A DNA stretch of 7,718 bases, from assembly GCA_022561955.1 (NCBI GenBank), contig JADFQF010000057.1, positions 1 through 7,718 of the forward strand, in the 5' to 3' direction. Source of the stretch: Chloroflexota bacterium (GTDB lineage: Bacteria; Chloroflexota; Dehalococcoidia; SAR202; UBA11138). Position 1 is the first letter of the stretch, and every line of letters starts with the position of its first letter. A program made the translations under genes and the position numbers. Under the pieces are notes generated by a model. It was not told the DNA's origin, searched no databases, and worked only from the letters and a program-made list of their open reading frames with translations. Positions 1 through 7,718 of the stretch are shown here, piece after piece.

Positions 1-1067
1 GAACTGCGACGGTAGCCGGCGCGGATGTTGTTCAGTTCCTTGTGTTCAGCCTGGATTTCCTGAAGGCGCGTTCTCTGTGACTCGAGTTCGGCAGTTATCG
101 TAACAAGCTGGTCACGTGCATTGCGATAGTCTGCCCTCCGGAAGATGTTGGCGATCTCAGTCTGTCTTTTTAGCAGGTCGTTCTTTCGTTGCTTCAGCGA
201 ATCGGAAACCTCTTTGACACGTCTGTGATTTTCGCCGAACCGTGTCAGCAGTTCGGCGAGCAAGGGTTCGAGCATTGCGATACTGTCTCTCATTCTCCTT
301 GCAACCGGGTCCCGTTCAATCTGTTCTGAGACGACTTCGTCATATTGACCCTCTGCACGTATTTTGAGGATTTCGACAGTACTGTTAAGACGACTGATAT
401 CATTCTCGAGGTCACCGAGGTCGGTTTGCTGGTCTCCGAGCGTCTCGCTGAGGTAGTCGCGGAACGAGCTTTCTCCGAGGTTTCCGAAAGGGGTCCCTTC
501 ACGCATTCGTCCCATTTCATCATTGGAAACGTCCAGATCTCTCTTAAGCTTTCCCTCTTGGTCGCGGCGTTTGCTGAGCTGATTCCTGAGGTCAACAGTG
601 GCTTCGTCTCTTTGCTGTGCGAGGAAAAGATCGAGCATTTGATTGACAATGAGTTTGGATTCGGCAGGGCTGCCGCAGGTCATGGAGACGACAAGGTGGA
701 CATCATCGCGAGGAGCCCTGGCGCCGAGGTGCCTCTGCAGGTTCTTTACGGCGCGGGGGATATTGGTCTTGTTGCCTTTGATAAATCGTTTGAACCATTT
801 CGTGTTTCGGATTTTATCCTTTCTTAGCAGGTCCAGCAGGGTCCCGAGGCTCTTCATTCTGAGTATCTTGGAATTCCTGAACTGGTCGTAAATGTCCTTG
901 TTGAGGCCGCCCTCGCGAAAGGTCTCGACGGCGATCTCACCGCTGAGGCCCGAGCACCCCGTAAACGCGGCGACCAGGACGCTTCCTACCTCTACCCAGA
1001 ACAGGTCGAGGCGGAGCTCGTCTCTCCACATCTCGGCTCTCTGGCCTTGGCCGCCTAAAGTAGGCAT
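1..1067 (-). CDS. Wzz/GumC-like polysaccharide chain-length / co-polymerase protein, 3' end outside the window
   Basis: The frame is open for 355 codons from ATG 1067 to the window edge with no stop, so the C-terminus is missing. GAGGA at 1076-1080, 8 nt before the ATG, supports this start. Residues about 56-150 resemble the periplasmic part of Wzz/GumC proteins, including a stretch around V-S-M-T (127-130) and I-V-N-Q-M-L (140-145), where the family has its 'iVNa..' helix. Residues about 150-350 are rich in charged heptads and look like a long coiled coil. RFGENHRRVKEV (276-287) matches the family's 'rfGe.Hp.v' signature. Family members usually set exopolysaccharide or O-antigen chain length from the inner membrane. 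Oddly, no clear N-terminal membrane helix is present; only a weak hydrophobic patch at about 22-40. The next stop upstream in this frame is near 1150, and nothing between encodes a helix. The gene probably belongs to a different locus from the injection system. Other coiled-coil proteins cannot be excluded. Confidence 0.7.
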   Translation of the reverse strand, partial: MPTLGGQGQRAEMWRDELRLDLFWVEVGSVLVAAFTGCSGLSGEIAVETFREGGLNKDIYDQFRNSKILRMKSLGTLLDLLRKDKIRNTKWFKRFIKGNKTNIPRAVKNLQRHLGARAPRDDVHLVVSMTCGSPAESKLIVNQMLDLFLAQQRDEATVDLRNQLSKRRDQEGKLKRDLDVSNDEMGRMREGTPFGNLGESSFRDYLSETLGDQQTDLGDLENDISRLNSTVEILKIRAEGQYDEVVSEQIERDPVARRMRDSIAMLEPLLAELLTRFGENHRRVKEVSDSLKQRKNDLLKRQTEIANIFRRADYRNARDQLVTITAELESQRTRLQEIQAEHKELNNIRAGYRRS

Positions 1068-1185: not shown

Positions 1186-1344
1186 CTAGGCCTGGTTCAG
1201 GCTCTTGTTGATGCCCGATACCTCACCGACCCAGCGCAATCGCTCGGTATGGTCGAGGGAGAACAGCTGTTGGGCCGGCCAGTGGAGGTAGTAGGCGAGA
1301 AACGCCAACTCCTCGTACAGTCGCTCCTGCGGATAGACTGCTAT
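1186..1344 (-). CDS. DUF6760-family eCIS mini-protein (Afp6-like) without a canonical start codon
   Basis: This frame encodes about 49-52 residues starting around VYPQERLYEELAFLAYYLHW, then a charged helix with LDHTERLRWV and a stop TAG at 1186-1188. The pattern of an HW-P motif followed by L-h-E-R-x-R-W is the DUF6760 signature found next to tube genes in eCIS clusters. It also recalls the layout of the P2 gpE' extension. Conservation leaves little doubt that it is coding. There is no ATG, GTG or TTG in frame near the conserved start; the codons before VYPQER read GGG GGC ATA GCA. The coordinate given is the ATA at 1344, whose last two bases overlap the TAG of the upstream tail assembly gene (ATAG). 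Expression could come from ATA initiation or from a -1 frameshift at the G run 1346-1350, giving a fusion of about 177 aa with the upstream protein. The exact N-terminus is unknown. Confidence 0.75.
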   Translation of the reverse strand: MAVYPQERLYEELAFLAYYLHWPAQQLFSLDHTERLRWVGEVSGINKSLNQA

Positions 1345-1718
1345 GCCCCCACTGGCGCCATCAGTTCCCCCGGCTCCACCTCGAACTCGGTGCTGCAGCT
1401 CGGGCAGGCAACCCGCCCGAGCGACGCGTCTTCGTTGACGCTGCGATACAGCTCCTGGAGGTAGCCGAGGTCGGCCGTGAACATGCGCTCGATCACGCCG
1501 GTGTTAACGTCCGAGAGGGTTCCCAGGCTCGTGATTACCCGTGACAGGATCATTATGCTCAGGTACGCCTCGTTGCCCTTCACCCGCGGGTCACGCAGCG
1601 GGATGATCTCGTCCATCGCGGTTGCCAGACGCATGGTGCCCTCGCGGTGGACCGAGCCCTCCTGGTCTACGTATCCCTTGGGCAGGTGGAACTCGAACTC
1701 TGTTTGCAACATTGTCAT
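1341..1718 (-). CDS. Phage tail assembly protein (eCIS tail chaperone-like), 125 aa
   Basis: The protein starts MTMLQTEFEF and carries the block HREGTMRLATAMDEIIPLRD (24-43) followed by a helical core with L-S-R-V-I-T-S-L-G. This is the pattern of the small 'phage tail assembly protein' family found directly after the tube gene in many eCIS clusters. Near the C-terminus C105-P-S-C108 forms one CxxC pair with no second pair, so any metal site would need another protomer or a partner. The start ATG 1718 has a strong GAGGAGG 7 nt upstream; a second ATG two codons later is possible. The gene lies 29 nt after the tube gene. Its position between tube and DUF6760 is where tailed phages keep tail chaperones, so a role in tube polymerisation is inferred. 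The last codons read GTG GGG GCA TAG, and the -1 frame continues into DUF6760. Confidence 0.8.
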   Translation of the reverse strand: MTMLQTEFEFHLPKGYVDQEGSVHREGTMRLATAMDEIIPLRDPRVKGNEAYLSIMILSRVITSLGTLSDVNTGVIERMFTADLGYLQELYRSVNEDASLGRVACPSCSTEFEVEPGELMAPVGA

Positions 1719-1747: not shown

Positions 1748-2206
1748 CTATGACACTCTCTCGATGTACTCGTGGACGATGGTCAGGGTCTCGATGACTA
1801 CGTCCTCGGTGTCGGCTCCCAGGTCGCCGGAGGATATGTTCGAGGGCCAACCTCGTTCGAAGTTAAAGCGGGCGACCTCCGTTCCTTCCTGGTCATACAT
1901 GACGATGGAGCCATCGGTCCTGGCTCCGTTCACGTCGCCGTCTTCCACCTGCTTGCGCCAGGCCCAGAGGTCCAAATTGGACGTGACTCCACGGCTGAGC
2001 TCGATATCGCCCCACGTCAACCTTCCAGGTATCTTCCGAATGATCTGCTTGCCACCTTCTCCCACTATGAGGTGGTCCGTGACCGCTGTCTCGGATCCCA
2101 GACCGGATACCGAGGTGAAGAAGCCGGCGATGCTACCGCCGAGCTCCAGCGCAAAATTAAAACCTACTAGGGGATCGCCATCGGTTGCTAGTTTTCCGCT
2201 AGGCAT
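1748..2206 (-). CDS. T4 gp19-like tail tube protein, 152 aa
   Basis: This is the inner tube protein, which stacks as hexameric rings inside the contractile sheath. The N-terminal part with DPLVGFNFALELGG, the FFTSVSGLGSET segment (29-40), and the middle with GRLTWGDIELSRGVT and L-D-L-W-A-W are the standard pattern of gp19 tube proteins from eCIS, R-type pyocins and contractile phages. The usual C-terminal strand with ETLTIVHEYIERV is also present. About 150 residues is the normal family length. AAAGGAG lies about 10 nt before ATG 2206. The gene follows the sheath by 37 nt. Only one tube gene is visible, whereas Afp and PVC encode two (Afp1 and Afp5). Confidence 0.95.
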   Translation of the reverse strand: MPSGKLATDGDPLVGFNFALELGGSIAGFFTSVSGLGSETAVTDHLIVGEGGKQIIRKIPGRLTWGDIELSRGVTSNLDLWAWRKQVEDGDVNGARTDGSIVMYDQEGTEVARFNFERGWPSNISSGDLGADTEDVVIETLTIVHEYIERVS

Positions 2207-2243: not shown

Positions 2244-3809
2244 TTAACCTTCCAGCTCGGGAGACCACTGGGCGATGCGGAAGATAACGAACTCGGCCGG
2301 CTTCACCGGGGCTATGCCGATTTCCGTCACGACCTGGCCCAGGTCTCTCAACTCCGGAGGGTTGGTCTCCGCGTCGCATTTCACGTAGAAGGCCTCTGAC
2401 GGAGTTGCTCCGAAAAGGGCTCCGGACCGCCAGACCACCTTGAGGAACGAGCTGACGTCCCTGTTGATCTTGCCCCACAACGACATGTCGTTGGGCTCGA
2501 AGACGACCCACTGAGTCCCGCCCTCGATGGACTTCTCCACCATGTTGAACAGGCGCCGGACGTTGATGTAGCGCCAGGACGGGTCGCTGGAAAGCGTTCG
2601 GGCGCCCCACACGCGAATGCCCCTGCCGGGGAAGGCTCGTATGCAGTTGATGCCGGCCGGGTTCAGGCCGTCCTGCTCGCCCTTGGTGATCTGCATTTCG
2701 ACGTCGATCGCGCCGCCCACGACCTCGTTGGCCGGTGCCTTGTGCACGCCGCGAGTGTCGTCGGTGCGCGCCCAGATGCCGGCCATGTGTCCCGATGGCG
2801 GCATGAGTATGGGCCTGCCGGTCACCGGATCGAATATCTTGATCCACGGGTAGTAGAGTGCCGCATACGACGAGTCGTAGTTGGCGACATTGACCCGCCA
2901 GTTTTCGATCTCCTGCGGGTTCATGCCGGGAGGCGCGTCGAGAATTGCGACTCGGTCTCCCATGCGCTCGCAGTGGCTTATCATCGCGGTCTGAACGGCC
3001 TGAACGCCTTCCAGGTCGATCATGCCGGACTGCAACGCGGCCATCAGGTCCGGCGCGATCAGCATCGTCACGTCGTCGGCTGCCTCAAGCCCGCCCATGC
3101 CCGTGCGGCTCGCGGCGTTGCCTTCGAAGTCGCTCGGTGCGATCTCCAGCGCCGTCGTCGGTGCCGCGGACGAGAGCTCATAGGTGCCGGCCTGGGGCCT
3201 GCGCTCGGCTACGGTGCCGCCCGCGCCCACGTCGGTAACTCTGACCAGGTTGGACCCCGACGAGGTGTCGTTTACGATGGTTTCTACGTTCCGAGCCCCC
3301 CGACCACGCCTGAGGGTCAGGTTGTCGAAGACCTCTTCCGTCGAGCCCATGCGGACCGTGACTTTGAACGTATCGTCCGGGGCATCCCCCTCTTCGGGAG
3401 GAGTCGCATCGGATACCTCTACGGAGATGCCCGACGCCTCGTCTCCCGTGGCCACCGACGCGAACCTCAGCGTGTCGGCCGGTGAGTCGGCCCGGCTCGG
3501 CAAGGCCGCCGTGGCCTGCCCAGGGGACTCGCCCGCGTCATCCTCTGCTCCGAGCCTCACGATGTACGCCCGGCCGCCGCCGTTGTTGAAGTAGCCGTAC
3601 ACCGAGTGGGCGAGGAAGAAGCCCTCCATGAAATCGCCGAAGCCGTCGACGAACTGGGTCCAGTTGGTGACCAGGGTCGGTGTGTTGATCGGGCCCTTCT
3701 CAGCGAAGCCCACAAATGCGGCTACGGCGGTAGGCACGCCTTCGATCGGCTTGCTGCCGCCATCGACCTCCTCTACGTAAACTCCTGGTGATAGATATGT
3801 AGGTGCCAT
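2244..3809 (-). CDS. Contractile tail sheath protein, 521 aa
   Basis: This is the sheath subunit, which assembles around the tube and contracts to drive it out. The N-terminus YLSPGVYVEEVDGGSKPIEG (5-24), then VAAFVGFAEKGP and W-T-Q-F, is the eCIS sheath hallmark. The core contains the DRVAILDAPPG segment (285-295), the HKAPANE motif (356-362), and GINCIRAFPGRGIRVWGART (386-405). The C-terminal domain (about 406-521) has WRYINVRRLFN and ends PAEFVIFRIAQWSPELEG. The C-terminal strands are those that link neighbouring subunits in solved sheaths. Residues about 88-240 form an Asp/Glu/Ser/Gly-rich, poorly conserved insertion, probably the surface-exposed domain. AAGGAG at 3816-3821 is 6 nt before the ATG. 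A single sheath gene is present, unlike the three (Afp2-4) of Afp/PVC. Confidence 0.97.
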   Translation of the reverse strand: MAPTYLSPGVYVEEVDGGSKPIEGVPTAVAAFVGFAEKGPINTPTLVTNWTQFVDGFGDFMEGFFLAHSVYGYFNNGGGRAYIVRLGAEDDAGESPGQATAALPSRADSPADTLRFASVATGDEASGISVEVSDATPPEEGDAPDDTFKVTVRMGSTEEVFDNLTLRRGRGARNVETIVNDTSSGSNLVRVTDVGAGGTVAERRPQAGTYELSSAAPTTALEIAPSDFEGNAASRTGMGGLEAADDVTMLIAPDLMAALQSGMIDLEGVQAVQTAMISHCERMGDRVAILDAPPGMNPQEIENWRVNVANYDSSYAALYYPWIKIFDPVTGRPILMPPSGHMAGIWARTDDTRGVHKAPANEVVGGAIDVEMQITKGEQDGLNPAGINCIRAFPGRGIRVWGARTLSSDPSWRYINVRRLFNMVEKSIEGGTQWVVFEPNDMSLWGKINRDVSSFLKVVWRSGALFGATPSEAFYVKCDAETNPPELRDLGQVVTEIGIAPVKPAEFVIFRIAQWSPELEG

Positions 3810-3889: not shown

Positions 3890-4720
3890 TCAAAGGCCGA
3901 CATCGTATTGATTGCTGGGAACTTCGATGCGCTCGCGGCGTTCTTCCATGCCGGGAGCCGTGATGATAAGCGTGTATTCGCCCGGCGGCACGCCGTGGAA
4001 GGTGTATCGGCCCTCGTCGTCGGTGACCGCGTCCAGGGCCCTCTCCAACAGGGTGACCGCGACGCCCTCTATTCCCGCCTCCGCGTTGTCCCGCTCGTGA
4101 ATTCGGCCGCCGAACTGGAGCGGAAGATCGAACAGCTCCGCCTTGCCGGTGGTCTTGTCTATCTGGCCAAGCTTGAACATCGACGTCAGAGCCAGTCCCA
4201 CCGTGATCTCCTGGCTTATGTCGACGCTGATAGTAAGCCGATAATCCAGGGAGGGCCGGATGTCGCCGTCCAGAGAGCCCCAGTAGTCCGCGGGACTCTG
4301 AAGGACCTTGCTGGGGTGACCTATCGCCGTTCGTATCTCCTGGCCGGCCACTTCGCCCCTCAAAAGGTCCTCCGGGATGACGGGGTGCTGAAGCAGGGTG
4401 ACCAGTACCCTGCCCAGCAGCCTGTGTTCGTCTTCGACGGCATTCGCGAAGGCCGTAATGCTGTAGGCGACGTCAATCCTCACGTCCGGCCTCGACTTGA
4501 CGGCGGTGTTGTTGTCGCCCCGGCGGACCTGCCACGCGGACGGGTTCCGCAGCTCGAAGTTCTGACGCAGGTCGTACAGGTAGACGTTTACGGTGGGCCT
4601 CGCCATTCCCGCCGCCCAGTCCCGCGTGGGCATATCGAAGGAGATATCCACCTCACCGGCGTTCAGGTTTCCCCTCTGGACAAGCAGGTCCCTTATGGAT
4701 TCATCGAGGTCGGCAAACAT
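3890..4720 (-). CDS. DUF4255 / Pvc16-type tail terminator (cap) protein with a C-terminal carboxypeptidase-regulatory-like domain, 276 aa
   Basis: The first 200 residues match DUF4255 (Pvc16_N): MFADLDESIRDLL at the start, I-S-F-D-M-P-T-R-D-W at about 26-35, RPTVNVYLYDLRQNFELR (41-58), and DVAYSITAFANAVEDEHRLL with VLVTLLQHPVIP (83-116). In Afp and PVC the homologue caps the end of the tube and sheath opposite the baseplate and fixes particle length. Residues about 202-268 add a beta-sandwich of the CarboxypepD_reg/SpaA type, with FGGRI, GVAVTLLE, D-D-E-G-R-Y-T-F-H-G-V-P-P-G-E-Y and L-I-I-T-A. Such domains often act as structural or surface modules. AGGAAAG upstream of ATG 4720 supports the start, which lies 12 nt after the ATPase stop. 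Confidence 0.9.
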   Translation of the reverse strand: MFADLDESIRDLLVQRGNLNAGEVDISFDMPTRDWAAGMARPTVNVYLYDLRQNFELRNPSAWQVRRGDNNTAVKSRPDVRIDVAYSITAFANAVEDEHRLLGRVLVTLLQHPVIPEDLLRGEVAGQEIRTAIGHPSKVLQSPADYWGSLDGDIRPSLDYRLTISVDISQEITVGLALTSMFKLGQIDKTTGKAELFDLPLQFGGRIHERDNAEAGIEGVAVTLLERALDAVTDDEGRYTFHGVPPGEYTLIITAPGMEERRERIEVPSNQYDVGL

Positions 4721-4732
4721 TTGGCGTCTTTC

Positions 4733-6976
4733 CTATACCCTTGCTTCCGATTTCACCAGGTCGAAATACTCTCCGAAATCGCTTTCGACCAGAAGCTTGC
4801 CCATCTTCTGGTACTCGCGTCTCGTGGCGGCGATGACGTGGCCCATCTTTATCGAGTCGTTGGCCTGCGCTGCGAGGAAGGCGGAGGACACGGCGATGTT
4901 CTTGATATTGCCGCCGGCGATCTTGAATTGCCTCGCCATGAAACCCAGATCGACGCTGGCGTCCTGCGGCGCCTCATCCGGGAATACCATTCGCCATATC
5001 TCCAGCCGGTTCTCTTCCTCGGGCATGGGGTAATCGATGACGAAATGCGTCCTGCGAACGAATGCGTCGTCCATGTTCTTGCGGAAGTTTGTCGCCAGTA
5101 TCACGATCCCCTGGTACTCCTCCATCTTCTGGAGCAGGTAGCTGACCTCGATATTCGCGTAGCGGTCGTGGGAGTCCTTTACCTCGGACCTCTTTCCAAA
5201 CAGGGCGTCGGCCTCGTCGAAGAACAGAATGGAGTTGCTGTCGTTCGCCTCTCTGAAGATGCGGTCCAGATTCTTTTCCGTCTCGCCGATGTACTTGCTC
5301 ACGATTCCGGACAGGTCGATCTTGTACAGGTCGAGACCGAGCTCGCCCGCCATGATGTCCGCCGACATCGTCTTACCGGTGCCGGAAACCCCCGCGAACA
5401 GGACGTTTAGCCCCTTGCCCAGGTTGGTCTTCTTCTGGAATCCCCACTCGTCATAGACGAGAGACATGTTGGAAAAGTAGCTGCATATTTCGCGAAGCTG
5501 CTTCTTCTGGTCGGGAGGGAGGATGATATCGTCCCACATGTAATGAGGCGAGATCTTCTGGGCCAGCTCGGCGAGCTTCTGGTTGGAGTGCATACGCGAG
5601 GCGGCGTTTAGGTCTTCTATCGTCAGCCGTCTCTCGGAGCTTGGGCGCAGGCTTAGGTCGTCTTTGACCGTGCTCGCTATCTTGAAGATCTGTCCGCCGT
5701 TGAGTCGGAAACGGCCCGCCAACAGCCCGATATCCTCGTCCGAGAGGCCTGCTCGTTCGCCGTCCAGATGCAGGTCCCAGATGAGCCGTCGCTCGGCGTA
5801 GTCGGGCGCTGGGACCTCCAGGGTCAGGAGGGCCCGTCCCGGGATCTCCCCTTCGGCCCTCCAGGCACGCTCGCCCAGAAGGAGCGCGAAGCCCCGGAAT
5901 CTCGAGAGACCGGATGAGATCGCTGCGACGGCGGCCCGGGTCGCATTGTCGTCTTTGATCAGCAGGTGAATGCCGTCGAGGCAGATTGCCGCATCCTGGA
6001 GGACCGCTTCTCTGAACGCCGTTACGAGCAGCTCCGAGGCAGGTCCGTCCGACGCCAGCAGGTCCGCCAGGTCGATAATCAAAAGGTCCCGGCCAATGTC
6101 CGAGCATATCGCCTTGGCGATCTGTTTCTTGCCGCTACCCTTCTCGCCCACGAGCTGCAGCGTCAAGGCAGACGCCCCAACGTCTCCCGCATTTATGCCG
6201 CTGACTATCTTCGTTAGTCGGTCCTGGAACTCTGGCGGGAGAACGACGTCACATCTGGAAGAGGTCTTGGTCGGCTCCAGGTGCCCGTGTGCTCTCACGC
6301 GAGCGTCCAGGGCGTCGGAGCCAAGCATATAGTCCATCGCACGGACGTCGGCGATGATGGGGCTGCTCAGGGTGGGGCCGCCCTGCTTATACTGATCGTC
6401 CCCCACGCGGACGAGGTGGTTTTCCACCAGGTTAGAGCAGTTCAGGAACAGGTCTCTCTGGGTCAGACGATCGGCAATGCCCTGGCAGAAAAGAGTCAGC
6501 GCCAGGTCCAGGGTAGGGCGGCGCTTGTTGATGTCGTCTTGAAGATAGGCGTAGACGGTCTCGAAGCTCAGGTCAATCTCAGGCGCCACGCACAGGACGA
6601 GCACCGCGGCCTCGAATTCGCTCAGCCGAAATTTTTCCACGAGGCCCCTAAGTCGTAATTCGCCCCCCGCCTGTGGGCTCATGTCGGTGCGGTCGTTCAG
6701 CAACCCGAGGCGCTGGTCCAGGACGGCCTCCAAATGCTGGATTGCGTCTGACTGAGAGAGGTCTTCGGGCGCGATCAGCCGCGAGAGCAATATATCGATC
6801 TGCTCCTCGGATACAAAGAGACCCTTGAAGTCCTCGTCCGTCCCGTCTCGAAGCCTTCTCCGATTGACCTCCACGGCCAGCCGAAGACTCAACACCTCTA
6901 CATGAGCGAGGATATGGTCAATGTTCGTGGCGTAAGGCGCCACGATGTTGCCGGACAACGAATTCCTACCGTTCAT
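4733..6976 (-). CDS. Two-domain AAA+ ATPase of eCIS clusters (Afp15-like), 747 aa
   Basis: The N-terminal 240 residues are helical and contain FRLSEFEAAVLVLCVAPEID, typical of the N-domain of eCIS ATPases. The first AAA+ module has a Walker A at 277-284 (GEKGSGKK) but a weak Walker B, AAICLDG (329-335), without the catalytic Glu. The second is complete: Walker A GVSGTGKT (529-536), Walker B ILFFDEAD with D587/E588, sensor 1 ILATN ending at N630, and the arginine pair R641/R642 in A-F-V-R-R-T. The role is inferred to be assembly or release of the particle; it is not established. ATG 6976 is preferred: it begins 8 nt after the upstream stop, with a weak GAGA before it. A GTG at 7027 would add 17 residues and overlap the upstream gene but has no well-spaced ribosome binding site. 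In Afp and PVC this gene is near the operon end; here it is near the start. Confidence 0.92.
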   Translation of the reverse strand: MNGRNSLSGNIVAPYATNIDHILAHVEVLSLRLAVEVNRRRLRDGTDEDFKGLFVSEEQIDILLSRLIAPEDLSQSDAIQHLEAVLDQRLGLLNDRTDMSPQAGGELRLRGLVEKFRLSEFEAAVLVLCVAPEIDLSFETVYAYLQDDINKRRPTLDLALTLFCQGIADRLTQRDLFLNCSNLVENHLVRVGDDQYKQGGPTLSSPIIADVRAMDYMLGSDALDARVRAHGHLEPTKTSSRCDVVLPPEFQDRLTKIVSGINAGDVGASALTLQLVGEKGSGKKQIAKAICSDIGRDLLIIDLADLLASDGPASELLVTAFREAVLQDAAICLDGIHLLIKDDNATRAAVAAISSGLSRFRGFALLLGERAWRAEGEIPGRALLTLEVPAPDYAERRLIWDLHLDGERAGLSDEDIGLLAGRFRLNGGQIFKIASTVKDDLSLRPSSERRLTIEDLNAASRMHSNQKLAELAQKISPHYMWDDIILPPDQKKQLREICSYFSNMSLVYDEWGFQKKTNLGKGLNVLFAGVSGTGKTMSADIMAGELGLDLYKIDLSGIVSKYIGETEKNLDRIFREANDSNSILFFDEADALFGKRSEVKDSHDRYANIEVSYLLQKMEEYQGIVILATNFRKNMDDAFVRRTHFVIDYPMPEEENRLEIWRMVFPDEAPQDASVDLGFMARQFKIAGGNIKNIAVSSAFLAAQANDSIKMGHVIAATRREYQKMGKLLVESDFGEYFDLVKSEARV

Positions 6977-6984
6977 AACTGATC

Positions 6985-7236
6985 TCAGATTCTTCTCTGG
7001 CGCATCCAGCCCTTGATGCCCTGCCACCTCTCGCCAAAGTGGACGCCCATTCTTTCCAGGTATAGCGAGATGAATGAGGTGATGCCGTTCATGTCGTCTA
7101 TGTACTTGCGCTGACGGCTGGGCACGTGGGTGATGTGCCCGCGCCAGGTCGGATCTTCCTTATCGTCGCCCTCCGCACCGTCTTCGAGCCATATCTTGAC
7201 TACAAATGAGTGGGTGTTCGACTCGAAAGGGTCCAT
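6985..7236 (-). CDS. Small conserved eCIS-associated protein of unknown function, 83 aa
   Basis: The protein reads MDPFESNTHSFVVKIWLED, then an acidic linker, WRGHITHVPSRQRKYIDDMN and a C-terminal helix with I-S-L-Y-L-E-R-M-G-V. I recognise the F-E-S-x-T-H-S-F-V-V-K-I-W-L-E and WRGHITHVPS pattern as a small unnamed protein that recurs in eCIS clusters; no function is known to me. The last 15 or so residues are basic and aromatic. ATG 7236 is chosen because GAGG at 7242-7245 is 5 nt upstream and the conserved sequence begins here. An in-frame ATG at 7260 would add MSCQSEVE with a poorer site. It is the first gene of the operon, with a stop 8 nt before the ATPase start, so the two are probably coupled in translation. 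Confidence 0.8.
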   Translation of the reverse strand: MDPFESNTHSFVVKIWLEDGAEGDDKEDPTWRGHITHVPSRQRKYIDDMNGITSFISLYLERMGVHFGERWQGIKGWMRQRRI

Positions 7237-7241
7237 TTCAA

Positions 7242-7245
7242 CCTC
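7242..7245 (-). promoter_or_regulatory. Ribosome binding site that selects ATG 7236
   Basis: The minus strand reads GAGG followed by TTGAA and ATG 7236. The alternative ATG 7260 has only a CGGAG about 13 nt upstream, which is too far, so the shorter 83-aa product is preferred. Confidence 0.55.
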
Positions 7246-7260
7246 GCTCTGGCAGCTCAT

Positions 7261-7519: not shown

Positions 7520-7718
7520 CTATTCGGCAGGGTAGAGGTCAGCCTTCGGACGCTCGCCGGTACCCGACCCACTGGCATTGATGTATAGCTGGACCTCGTT
7601 GTGAAACTCGTTCAGCAGCGATTGAAGCCTGTTTATGTTGCCCACGGGCGCGACGTCCGACACCAGCGTCGGGCGGGCGTCGGGCGGAGCGTCCTGTAGC
7701 TGGTCTGACCTGAGCTGC
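7520..7718 (-). CDS. C-terminal end of an unrecognised protein, start outside the window
   Basis: The frame is open for 65 codons from the window edge to TAG at 7520-7522. The visible end includes VSDVAPVGNINRLQSLLNEF, then H-N-E-V-Q-L-Y-I-N-A-S-G and a Gly/Ser/Lys-rich tail ending Y-P-A-E. A Pro/Asp-rich stretch precedes one amphipathic helix of about 20 residues. I do not recognise a family. The stop just before a strong intrinsic terminator on the same strand supports this as the real frame. Because the terminator separates it from the eCIS genes, it need not be part of that system. Confidence 0.6.
   Translation of the reverse strand, partial: QLRSDQLQDAPPDARPTLVSDVAPVGNINRLQSLLNEFHNEVQLYINASGSGTGERPKADLYPAE

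Follow-up and report, generated by a model that had tools for sequence, protein, structure and literature searches.

The window, that is, the whole stretch of 7,718 nucleotides analysed here, carries an eCIS gene cluster in which the sheath, the gp19 tube, the Pvc16 protein and the AAA ATPase are grouped together. The tail assembly gene lies directly after the tube gene, giving the order sheath-tube-chaperone, and is overlapped at its 3′ end by a DUF6760 frame. The genes and features of the cluster are as follows.

4733..7027, minus strand: AAA ATPase (WHD and AAA); the ORF listing starts it at 7027 and the domain scan at 6976
3890..4720, minus strand: Pvc16 N-terminal domain protein (domain scan)
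2244..3809, minus strand: contractile sheath (domain scan)
1748..2206, minus strand: tail tube protein of the T4 gp19 family (domain scan)
1341..1718, minus strand: 0-frame gene for a probable tail assembly chaperone of the P2 gpE / Mu gp41 type, 125 aa, ending GTG GGG GCA TAG
1189..1344, minus strand: DUF6760 domain, 52 aa, distant relative of P2 gpE'
1186..1368, minus strand: predicted -1-frame extension after a slip at 1371-1365, reading GTDGASGG, then IAVYPQERLYEEL..., with the TAG stop at 1188-1186
1365..1371, minus strand: preferred candidate slip site G_GGG_GAA (0-frame CCG GGG GAA); Gly-Glu kept in the best 120 of 1882 relatives
1344..1350, minus strand: second in-phase G-run, G_GGG_GCA, the slip site of the initial annotation; absent from about half of the close relatives
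1317..1341, minus strand: GCAGUC/GACUGU hairpin, weak and without significance in the window

The window matches Pfam DUF6760 (PF20546) at 2.2e-12, with 47.3 bits against a gathering cut-off of 27, and the predicted structure of the domain consists of three helices (pLDDT 93). Read on the minus strand, the 125-aa gene runs from 1718 to 1341, and the overlapping frame, AGT GGG GGC ATA GCA GTC TAT CCG (SGGIAVYP), lies in register -1 to it and ends at 1186. Upstream of the 0-frame stop, this -1 frame runs 160 nt without a stop codon of its own, and no ATG, GTG or TTG precedes the conserved domain in it, the first TTG (1308) being already within DUF6760. The initial annotation, which described DUF6760 as a frame lacking a start codon at -1 to the tail assembly gene, is exact on these points. 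The two runs of five G that it noted (1350-1346 and 1371-1367) are both real and in the same phase, and its estimate of a fusion of about 177 aa gives the correct length for a slip at either run. Among predicted proteins in the databases, we found 1882 relatives of the tail assembly protein and five of DUF6760, the latter search being less sensitive with its very short query; three of the five (P0002-P0004) start within the overlap, and all three retain GGxxGAxGGIA(V/L)Y as read in -1.

Elsewhere in the window, the ORF after DUF6760 (3-1067, minus strand), which reaches past the window edge and occupies the place where a P2-type cluster would have its tape measure gene, has a gp19 tube-like N-terminus (Pfam 5e-5, residues 23-58) and, further on, a weak EpsF-like match (NCBIfam 2.8e-5, below the cut-off), and reflects either a chimeric contig or an odd fusion. 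Two short ORFs on the minus strand (6985-7260, and 7523-7717, of which the Pfam scan covered 7523-7663) match no Pfam or NCBIfam family at 1e-3, and an Rfam search of the window returned no match.

Register and slip site across the family

The initial annotation had proposed aligning the junction across eCIS clusters. We collected 195 loci, the window included, from genome contigs (80 loci kept from 173 matches), a viral source (5 contigs), a plasmid source (21 regions), a PF20546 search of the genomes of three phyla (matches in 19 of 296, 17 of 294 and 38 of 400) and a chaperone-alignment search of the genomes of one class (matches in 16 of 294). The chaperone-DUF6760 pair is present in 189 of the 195 loci and was found in none of L106, L127 and L168-L171. 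Removal of identical junctions left 163 unique ones; the additional loci L195-L198 repeat L002-L005. DUF6760 lies at -1 to the chaperone gene in 160 of these 163 junctions, which are related to one another (97 clusters at 80% identity), so that the counts are not independent. The three exceptions are L008, in which the register becomes +1 through an indel inside DUF6760, its first part being at -1; L108, in which a separate frame in register 0 starts with GTG; and L173, in which DUF6760 was mispaired, in register 0, with a second chaperone copy. The named records come from Actinomycetota, Chloroflexota, Cyanobacteriota, Pseudomonadota (Paraburkholderia and Rhizobium) and Bacillota (Paenibacillus) among bacteria and from haloarchaea (Halogeometricum and Haloferax) among archaea. 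Streptomyces clavuligerus has the junction on a plasmid (L158).

Several loci are unusual in other ways. An apparent indel in the DUF6760 frame is seen in L008 and L091 and represents either an assembly error or decay. Three cyanobacterial plasmids carry an extra copy of the tail assembly gene: in Brasilonema (L172) it stands directly ahead of the DUF6760-bearing copy, in Kovacikia (L173) the two copies are also in tandem, and in Pseudanabaena (L171) the second copy is about 12 kb away and shows no DUF6760 frame. L168 and L169 (Deinococcus) and L170 (Treponema) contain tail assembly homologues with no DUF6760 recognised by profile; in Deinococcus, a small gene annotated as hypothetical overlaps the stop by 4 nt.

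The open -1 frame contains an in-phase slip element (NNG GGG or NNG GGA AAN when read in the 0-frame) at 150 of the 160 -1 junctions; within the gene bodies, 81 of 15,193 codons have such an element. Runs of five or more G in phase are present in 138 of the 160 junctions as against 10 of the 15,193 body codons, although the glycines alone, two in the -1 peptide and one in the 0-frame, already call for part of the G-run. When C_CCU_UU is included, a slip site is found in 154 of the 160, and 92 of the 97 clusters consist mainly of junctions with one. The commonest motifs are G_GGG_GGN and G_GGG_GAN, with G_GGA_AAY in haloarchaea and C_CCU_UUR in five loci. By class, the 160 junctions comprise 78 with GGGGGG, 54 with GGGGGA only, 7 with GGGAAA, 5 with CCCTTT, 10 others and 6 with none; two further GGGAAA loci (L118 and L166) were filed under another heptamer, making nine in total. 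The CCCTTT loci (L135, L189, L190, L191 and L192) come from the Chloroflexota searches and carry C_CCU_UUA or C_CCU_UUG in phase, which appears to be a swapped slip signal; L190 also has a G-run further up, and the other four have none. G_GGG_GAA, the heptamer of the upper run in the window, ranks second among the motifs of the family; G_GGG_GAN departs from the strict X_XXY_YYZ pattern, and its re-pairing in the A site is poor.

The position of the slip site is also constrained. All 112 G-runs of 5-8 nucleotides that lie no more than 45 nt ahead of the conserved Tyr/Phe-Pro are in one phase, their first G being in each case the third position of a 0-frame codon. The P-site codon stands exactly 14 nt before the conserved Tyr in 104 of 114 junctions, and the position of the 0-frame stop varies from 1 to 14 codons after the slip codon.

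The downstream stem-loop

In many loci there is a stem of the kind GGCUACCCCCUC...GAGGAGGUAGCC or, in Streptomyces-type loci, GACGUACGCG...CGCGUACGUC, in a register 5 nt further; in the examples inspected, it starts 8-11 nt downstream of the point where the P-site codon begins. Its stability was compared with synonymous recodings at the 137 of the 150 G-run/GGGAAA loci that have the family spacing. The MFE is -22.2 versus -13.8 for the recodings, the 51-nt stretch being on average 8 kcal/mol more stable than recodings of the same peptide, and 109 of the 137 loci fall in the best 5%. The median z is -2.5, compared with -0.72 to +0.16 in seven control windows. A slight excess of stability is seen in the body of the chaperone gene, in the windows starting 222 nt (median z -0.72, 25 of 137 loci in the best 5%) and 273 nt (median z -0.29, 27 of 135) before the stop.

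Base pairs were counted in 63 of 64 diverse rows picked from 131. A single pairing register fits all 64 rows poorly, and the actinobacterial-type rows pair 5 nt further 3′; these were therefore counted apart, giving sets of 51 rows (A3) and 12 actinobacterial-type rows (A4), with L164 in neither and six rows re-cut by 3 nt. In A3, 81.6% of the cells are paired, versus 34-51% when the sequences are slid, and the covariation score is above that of 500 of 500 shuffles; pairs with changes on both sides are not unusually many, since 56 of 500 shuffles reach their number. In A4, 82.8% of the cells are paired and six pairs are changed on both sides. RNAalifold on the A3 alignment did not recover the stem and returned three other pairs.

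The stem-loop is not uniform across the family. The nine GGGAAA loci have z from -1.8 to +1.3, those of haloarchaea having no significant stem; a strong stem is present in L135, one of the four CCCTTT loci in which there is no G-run; and the six slip-less junctions have no strong stem-loop (z -1.6 to +0.5). The clade of the window has weak hairpins and no significant stem. The CAGTC/GACTG hairpin that the initial annotation placed after the lower run is indeed present within 1341-1317, but its stability is not clearly above that of shuffles (z -0.30 and -1.24), and against the synonymous null the near-identical L001 gives z of about -0.3. We therefore rejected this hairpin as a stimulator in the window.

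Start codons near the stop and alternative readings

Of the 160 junctions, 63 lack any ATG, GTG or TTG in the open frame as far as the initial residues of the domain; all 63 have a slip site, and 46 of the 97 clusters have such a start-less member. If only the stretch beginning 12 nt ahead of the stop is considered, a start is lacking in 89 of the 150 G-run/GGGAAA junctions and present in 61, and a start near the stop is found in 9 of the 10 junctions without a G-run/GGGAAA site. The association between starts and slip-site classes gives P = 0.005 for near starts and P = 0.09 for any start (Fisher tests, loci treated as independent). The initial annotation had regarded ATG or GTG at the ATA position in relatives as evidence against frameshifting; such a codon does overlap the stop in 52 of the 160 junctions, but 46 of these 52 keep the slip site. 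In the six slip-less junctions (L093, L105, L107, L110, L111 and L134), an ATG or GTG overlaps the stop in every case, and these are perhaps comparable to T4-like tail chaperones, which are reportedly made without frameshifting. In L105, L107, L110 and L111, the DUF6760 domain begins at the stop-overlapping ATG.

These starts could be explained by stop-start coupling, in which ribosomes would finish the tail assembly gene, start again at a codon that overlaps its stop (ATA, ATG or GTG) and make free DUF6760, with the G-run serving as a Shine-Dalgarno site. The presence of a start in all six slip-less junctions, and in most of those lacking a G-run or GGGAAA, fits this reading, as does the annotation of DUF6760 as a separate gene in several records. 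Since an in-frame start also stands near the stop at 61 junctions, free DUF6760 could be made there, and Shine-Dalgarno use is possible in Streptomyces-type loci, where the G-run lies 4 nt before GTG. However, at 51 of the 160 junctions the stop is overlapped by GTA, CTA or TTA and at 47 by ATA, and in window-like loci the G-run abuts the overlapping codon, which is too close for a Shine-Dalgarno site. Furthermore, the spacing of the G-run is fixed to DUF6760 rather than to the stop, and the six junctions in which a start replaces the slip site are without the strong stem-loop. We consider stop-start coupling improbable.

Transcriptional slippage, in which RNA polymerase would add a G within the run and create a mixed mRNA pool, is favored by the length of the G-runs (5-8), but polymerase slippage would hardly account for their single reading phase or for an mRNA stem at ribosomal spacing, and the in-phase substitutes G_GGA_AAY and C_CCU_UUR should not promote it; this reading is very improbable. 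For the window itself, a base error or a decayed gene with no working frameshift would agree with the weak stem-loop and the poor A-site match at 1350-1344 but is likewise very improbable, because L001, from another assembly, has the identical junction arrangement at 98% protein identity and the -1 overlap is also seen in the close relatives P0002-P0004 and L002-L004.

Relation to phage tail chaperones and proposed reading

DUF6760 members match Pfam P2_GpE (PF06528) in 10 of 33 cases (best 7e-4), phrog_10636 in 19 of 33 and phrog_1756 in 14 of 33, and P2 gpE' itself matches the same families; the DUF6760 domain of the window alone has no match to PF06528. In a single comparison by hhalign, DUF6760 and P2 gpE' align with an E-value of 7.7e-6 and a probability of 84% over 30 columns that span HWPxxxL...W. 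The resemblance to the P2 gpE' extension that the initial annotation had seen in the HWP...W pattern is thus borne out by the profile matches and by hhalign, and DUF6760 is a distant relative of that extension. The 0-frame protein matches phrog_508 "tail assembly chaperone" in all 28 relatives scanned (best 1.4e-7) and, weakly, PF10109 (TAC_7, the P2 E family) in 16 of 78 (best 0.0079); hhalign of the chaperone profile against P2 gpE gave no match. The chaperone model (pLDDT 82) has a Foldseek match to Mu FS-gp41 (E 1.3e-3) at rank 7, with T4-like baseplate-hub-assembly proteins ranked above it, and its best match in a PDB fold search, the HK97 chaperone 2ob9, is weak (E 0.23). Sequence searches of the PDB gave nothing useful, and tblastn of a phage collection with the chaperone gave no match.

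The gene order in P2 (sheath, tube, E/E+E') is that of the window, so the parallel in position after the tube gene drawn by the initial annotation holds, and P2 likewise has an overlapping -1 frame with an annotated -1 shift. P2 differs in that its annotated slip is at a T-run, whereas eCIS junctions use G-runs, GGGAAAY or CCCUUUR; the eCIS chaperone, unlike P2 gpE, has a C-terminal CPxC zinc-ribbon-like part, and its host system, unlike P2, is not a virus. The lambda tail is non-contractile, in contrast to the contractile eCIS, and its slip site is GGGAAAG, the GGGAAA core of which is shared by the haloarchaeal eCIS sites. Lambda gpG/gpGT are made alike, by a -1 slip near the 3′ end of the chaperone gene; the efficiency is described as higher for P2, and haloarchaeal viruses have counterparts (PMC5009743). 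About a thousand annotated actinophage frameshifts have the motif GGGGGAA, termed "fivetwo" (PMC10885494); the slip heptamer of these tail assembly chaperones is identical to the eCIS one, theirs being phage genes. For one phage chaperone cluster, PMC3711429 gives a measured frameshift of 6-7%.

The programmed -1 frameshifting put forward in the initial annotation is strongly supported by the 163-junction comparison and by the relation to P2 E/E'. The frame and the slip site are conserved, as is, in most of the family, the stem-loop, and the extension is homologous. These features point to a deeply conserved programmed -1 frameshift signal in eCIS junctions, and we put the probability that a tail chaperone extended by DUF6760 arises through -1 ribosomal frameshifting at roughly 0.88; ribosome slippage itself, its frequency and the chaperone role are what we infer. 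The tail assembly gene and the DUF6760 frame would then be one gene with two readings. Most ribosomes would end at the 0-frame stop and produce the 125-aa chaperone, and a minority would slip back one base on G_GGG_G.. near the 3′ end, the P-site tRNA-Gly re-pairing from GGG to GGG, and read on in -1; their product would be a chaperone of 177 aa that ends in the DUF6760 domain. If lambda G/GT and P2 E/E+E' are a guide, a fixed proportion of short to long forms would ready the inner tube, together with any partner that sets its length, to be assembled into the injection machine.

Taken jointly, the data make it fairly likely that -1 frameshifting is the ancestral and near-universal ratio-setter of this eCIS class in Bacteria and Archaea, including the Streptomyces systems that annotate DUF6760 separately. 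The signal would take the form of a G-run with a stem-loop in two pairing registers, of GGGAAAY in haloarchaea and of CCCUUUR in some Chloroflexota, and an overlapping start would substitute for it in a few actinobacterial and other genomes. As the signal would have been rebuilt several times, or a start codon used instead, it would be the two-product output, a short and a DUF6760-extended chaperone, that is conserved.

The mechanism is known from phages and, as far as we searched the open-licence literature, is new for eCIS. That literature yielded no paper on "DUF6760" and no recognisable report of eCIS frameshifting, including in passages of PMC13222765, PMC8718954 and PMC8528098, and the word "frameshift" is absent from the searched text of the CIS papers PMC10020575, PMC10066040, PMC12998442, PMC13277306, PMC12210884, PMC10598620 and PMC11126660. 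If the frameshift reading is true, DUF6760 gains a function as the -1 extension of the eCIS tail chaperone, which would help to explain the scarcity of predicted DUF6760 proteins in the clade. A recoding step would be added to a machine family studied in Streptomyces and Chloroflexota, with published CIS work on S. coelicolor and Roseiflexus castenholzii, and relatives of these machines are engineered for protein delivery; a copy of the junction that had been recoded or tidied would no longer give both products. The swapped slip signals also offer a natural series for recoding research.

Which of the two G-runs slips in the window can be judged from the relatives of its tail assembly protein. 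Among the best 120 of the 1882, Gly-Glu (GGG GAA, 1370-1365) is kept in all 120 and is always preceded by a residue able to have a codon ending in G. At the lower run (1350-1344), 62 of the 116 relatives with equal tail length have Gly, 45 have Glu and 9 have Ala. These and most other changes in the tail (Ala/Glu/Val/Gly, Pro/Leu, Val/Ala and Met/Thr) are of the kind that substitutions in the second base of 0-frame codons would give, and these bases are the wobble bases of the -1 codons; the Leu/Val and Met/Leu/Ala changes do not fit this pattern, which was deduced from protein, with DNA from three lineages only. It seems from these changes that the -1 frame is already read upstream of 1350, which favors a slip at 1371-1365. 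The initial annotation had placed the slip at 1350-1346; the upper run is probably the site instead, and the conservation of residues in the relatives disfavors the lower run as the sole one. Against the upper run, the lower run has the family spacing both to Tyr and to the weak hairpin, and given the spacing to Tyr both runs may be used in the window. A further point against the upper run is that L003 and L004, in which the lower run is absent, have a GTG overlapping the end of the stop region behind GGAGG (start at +2).
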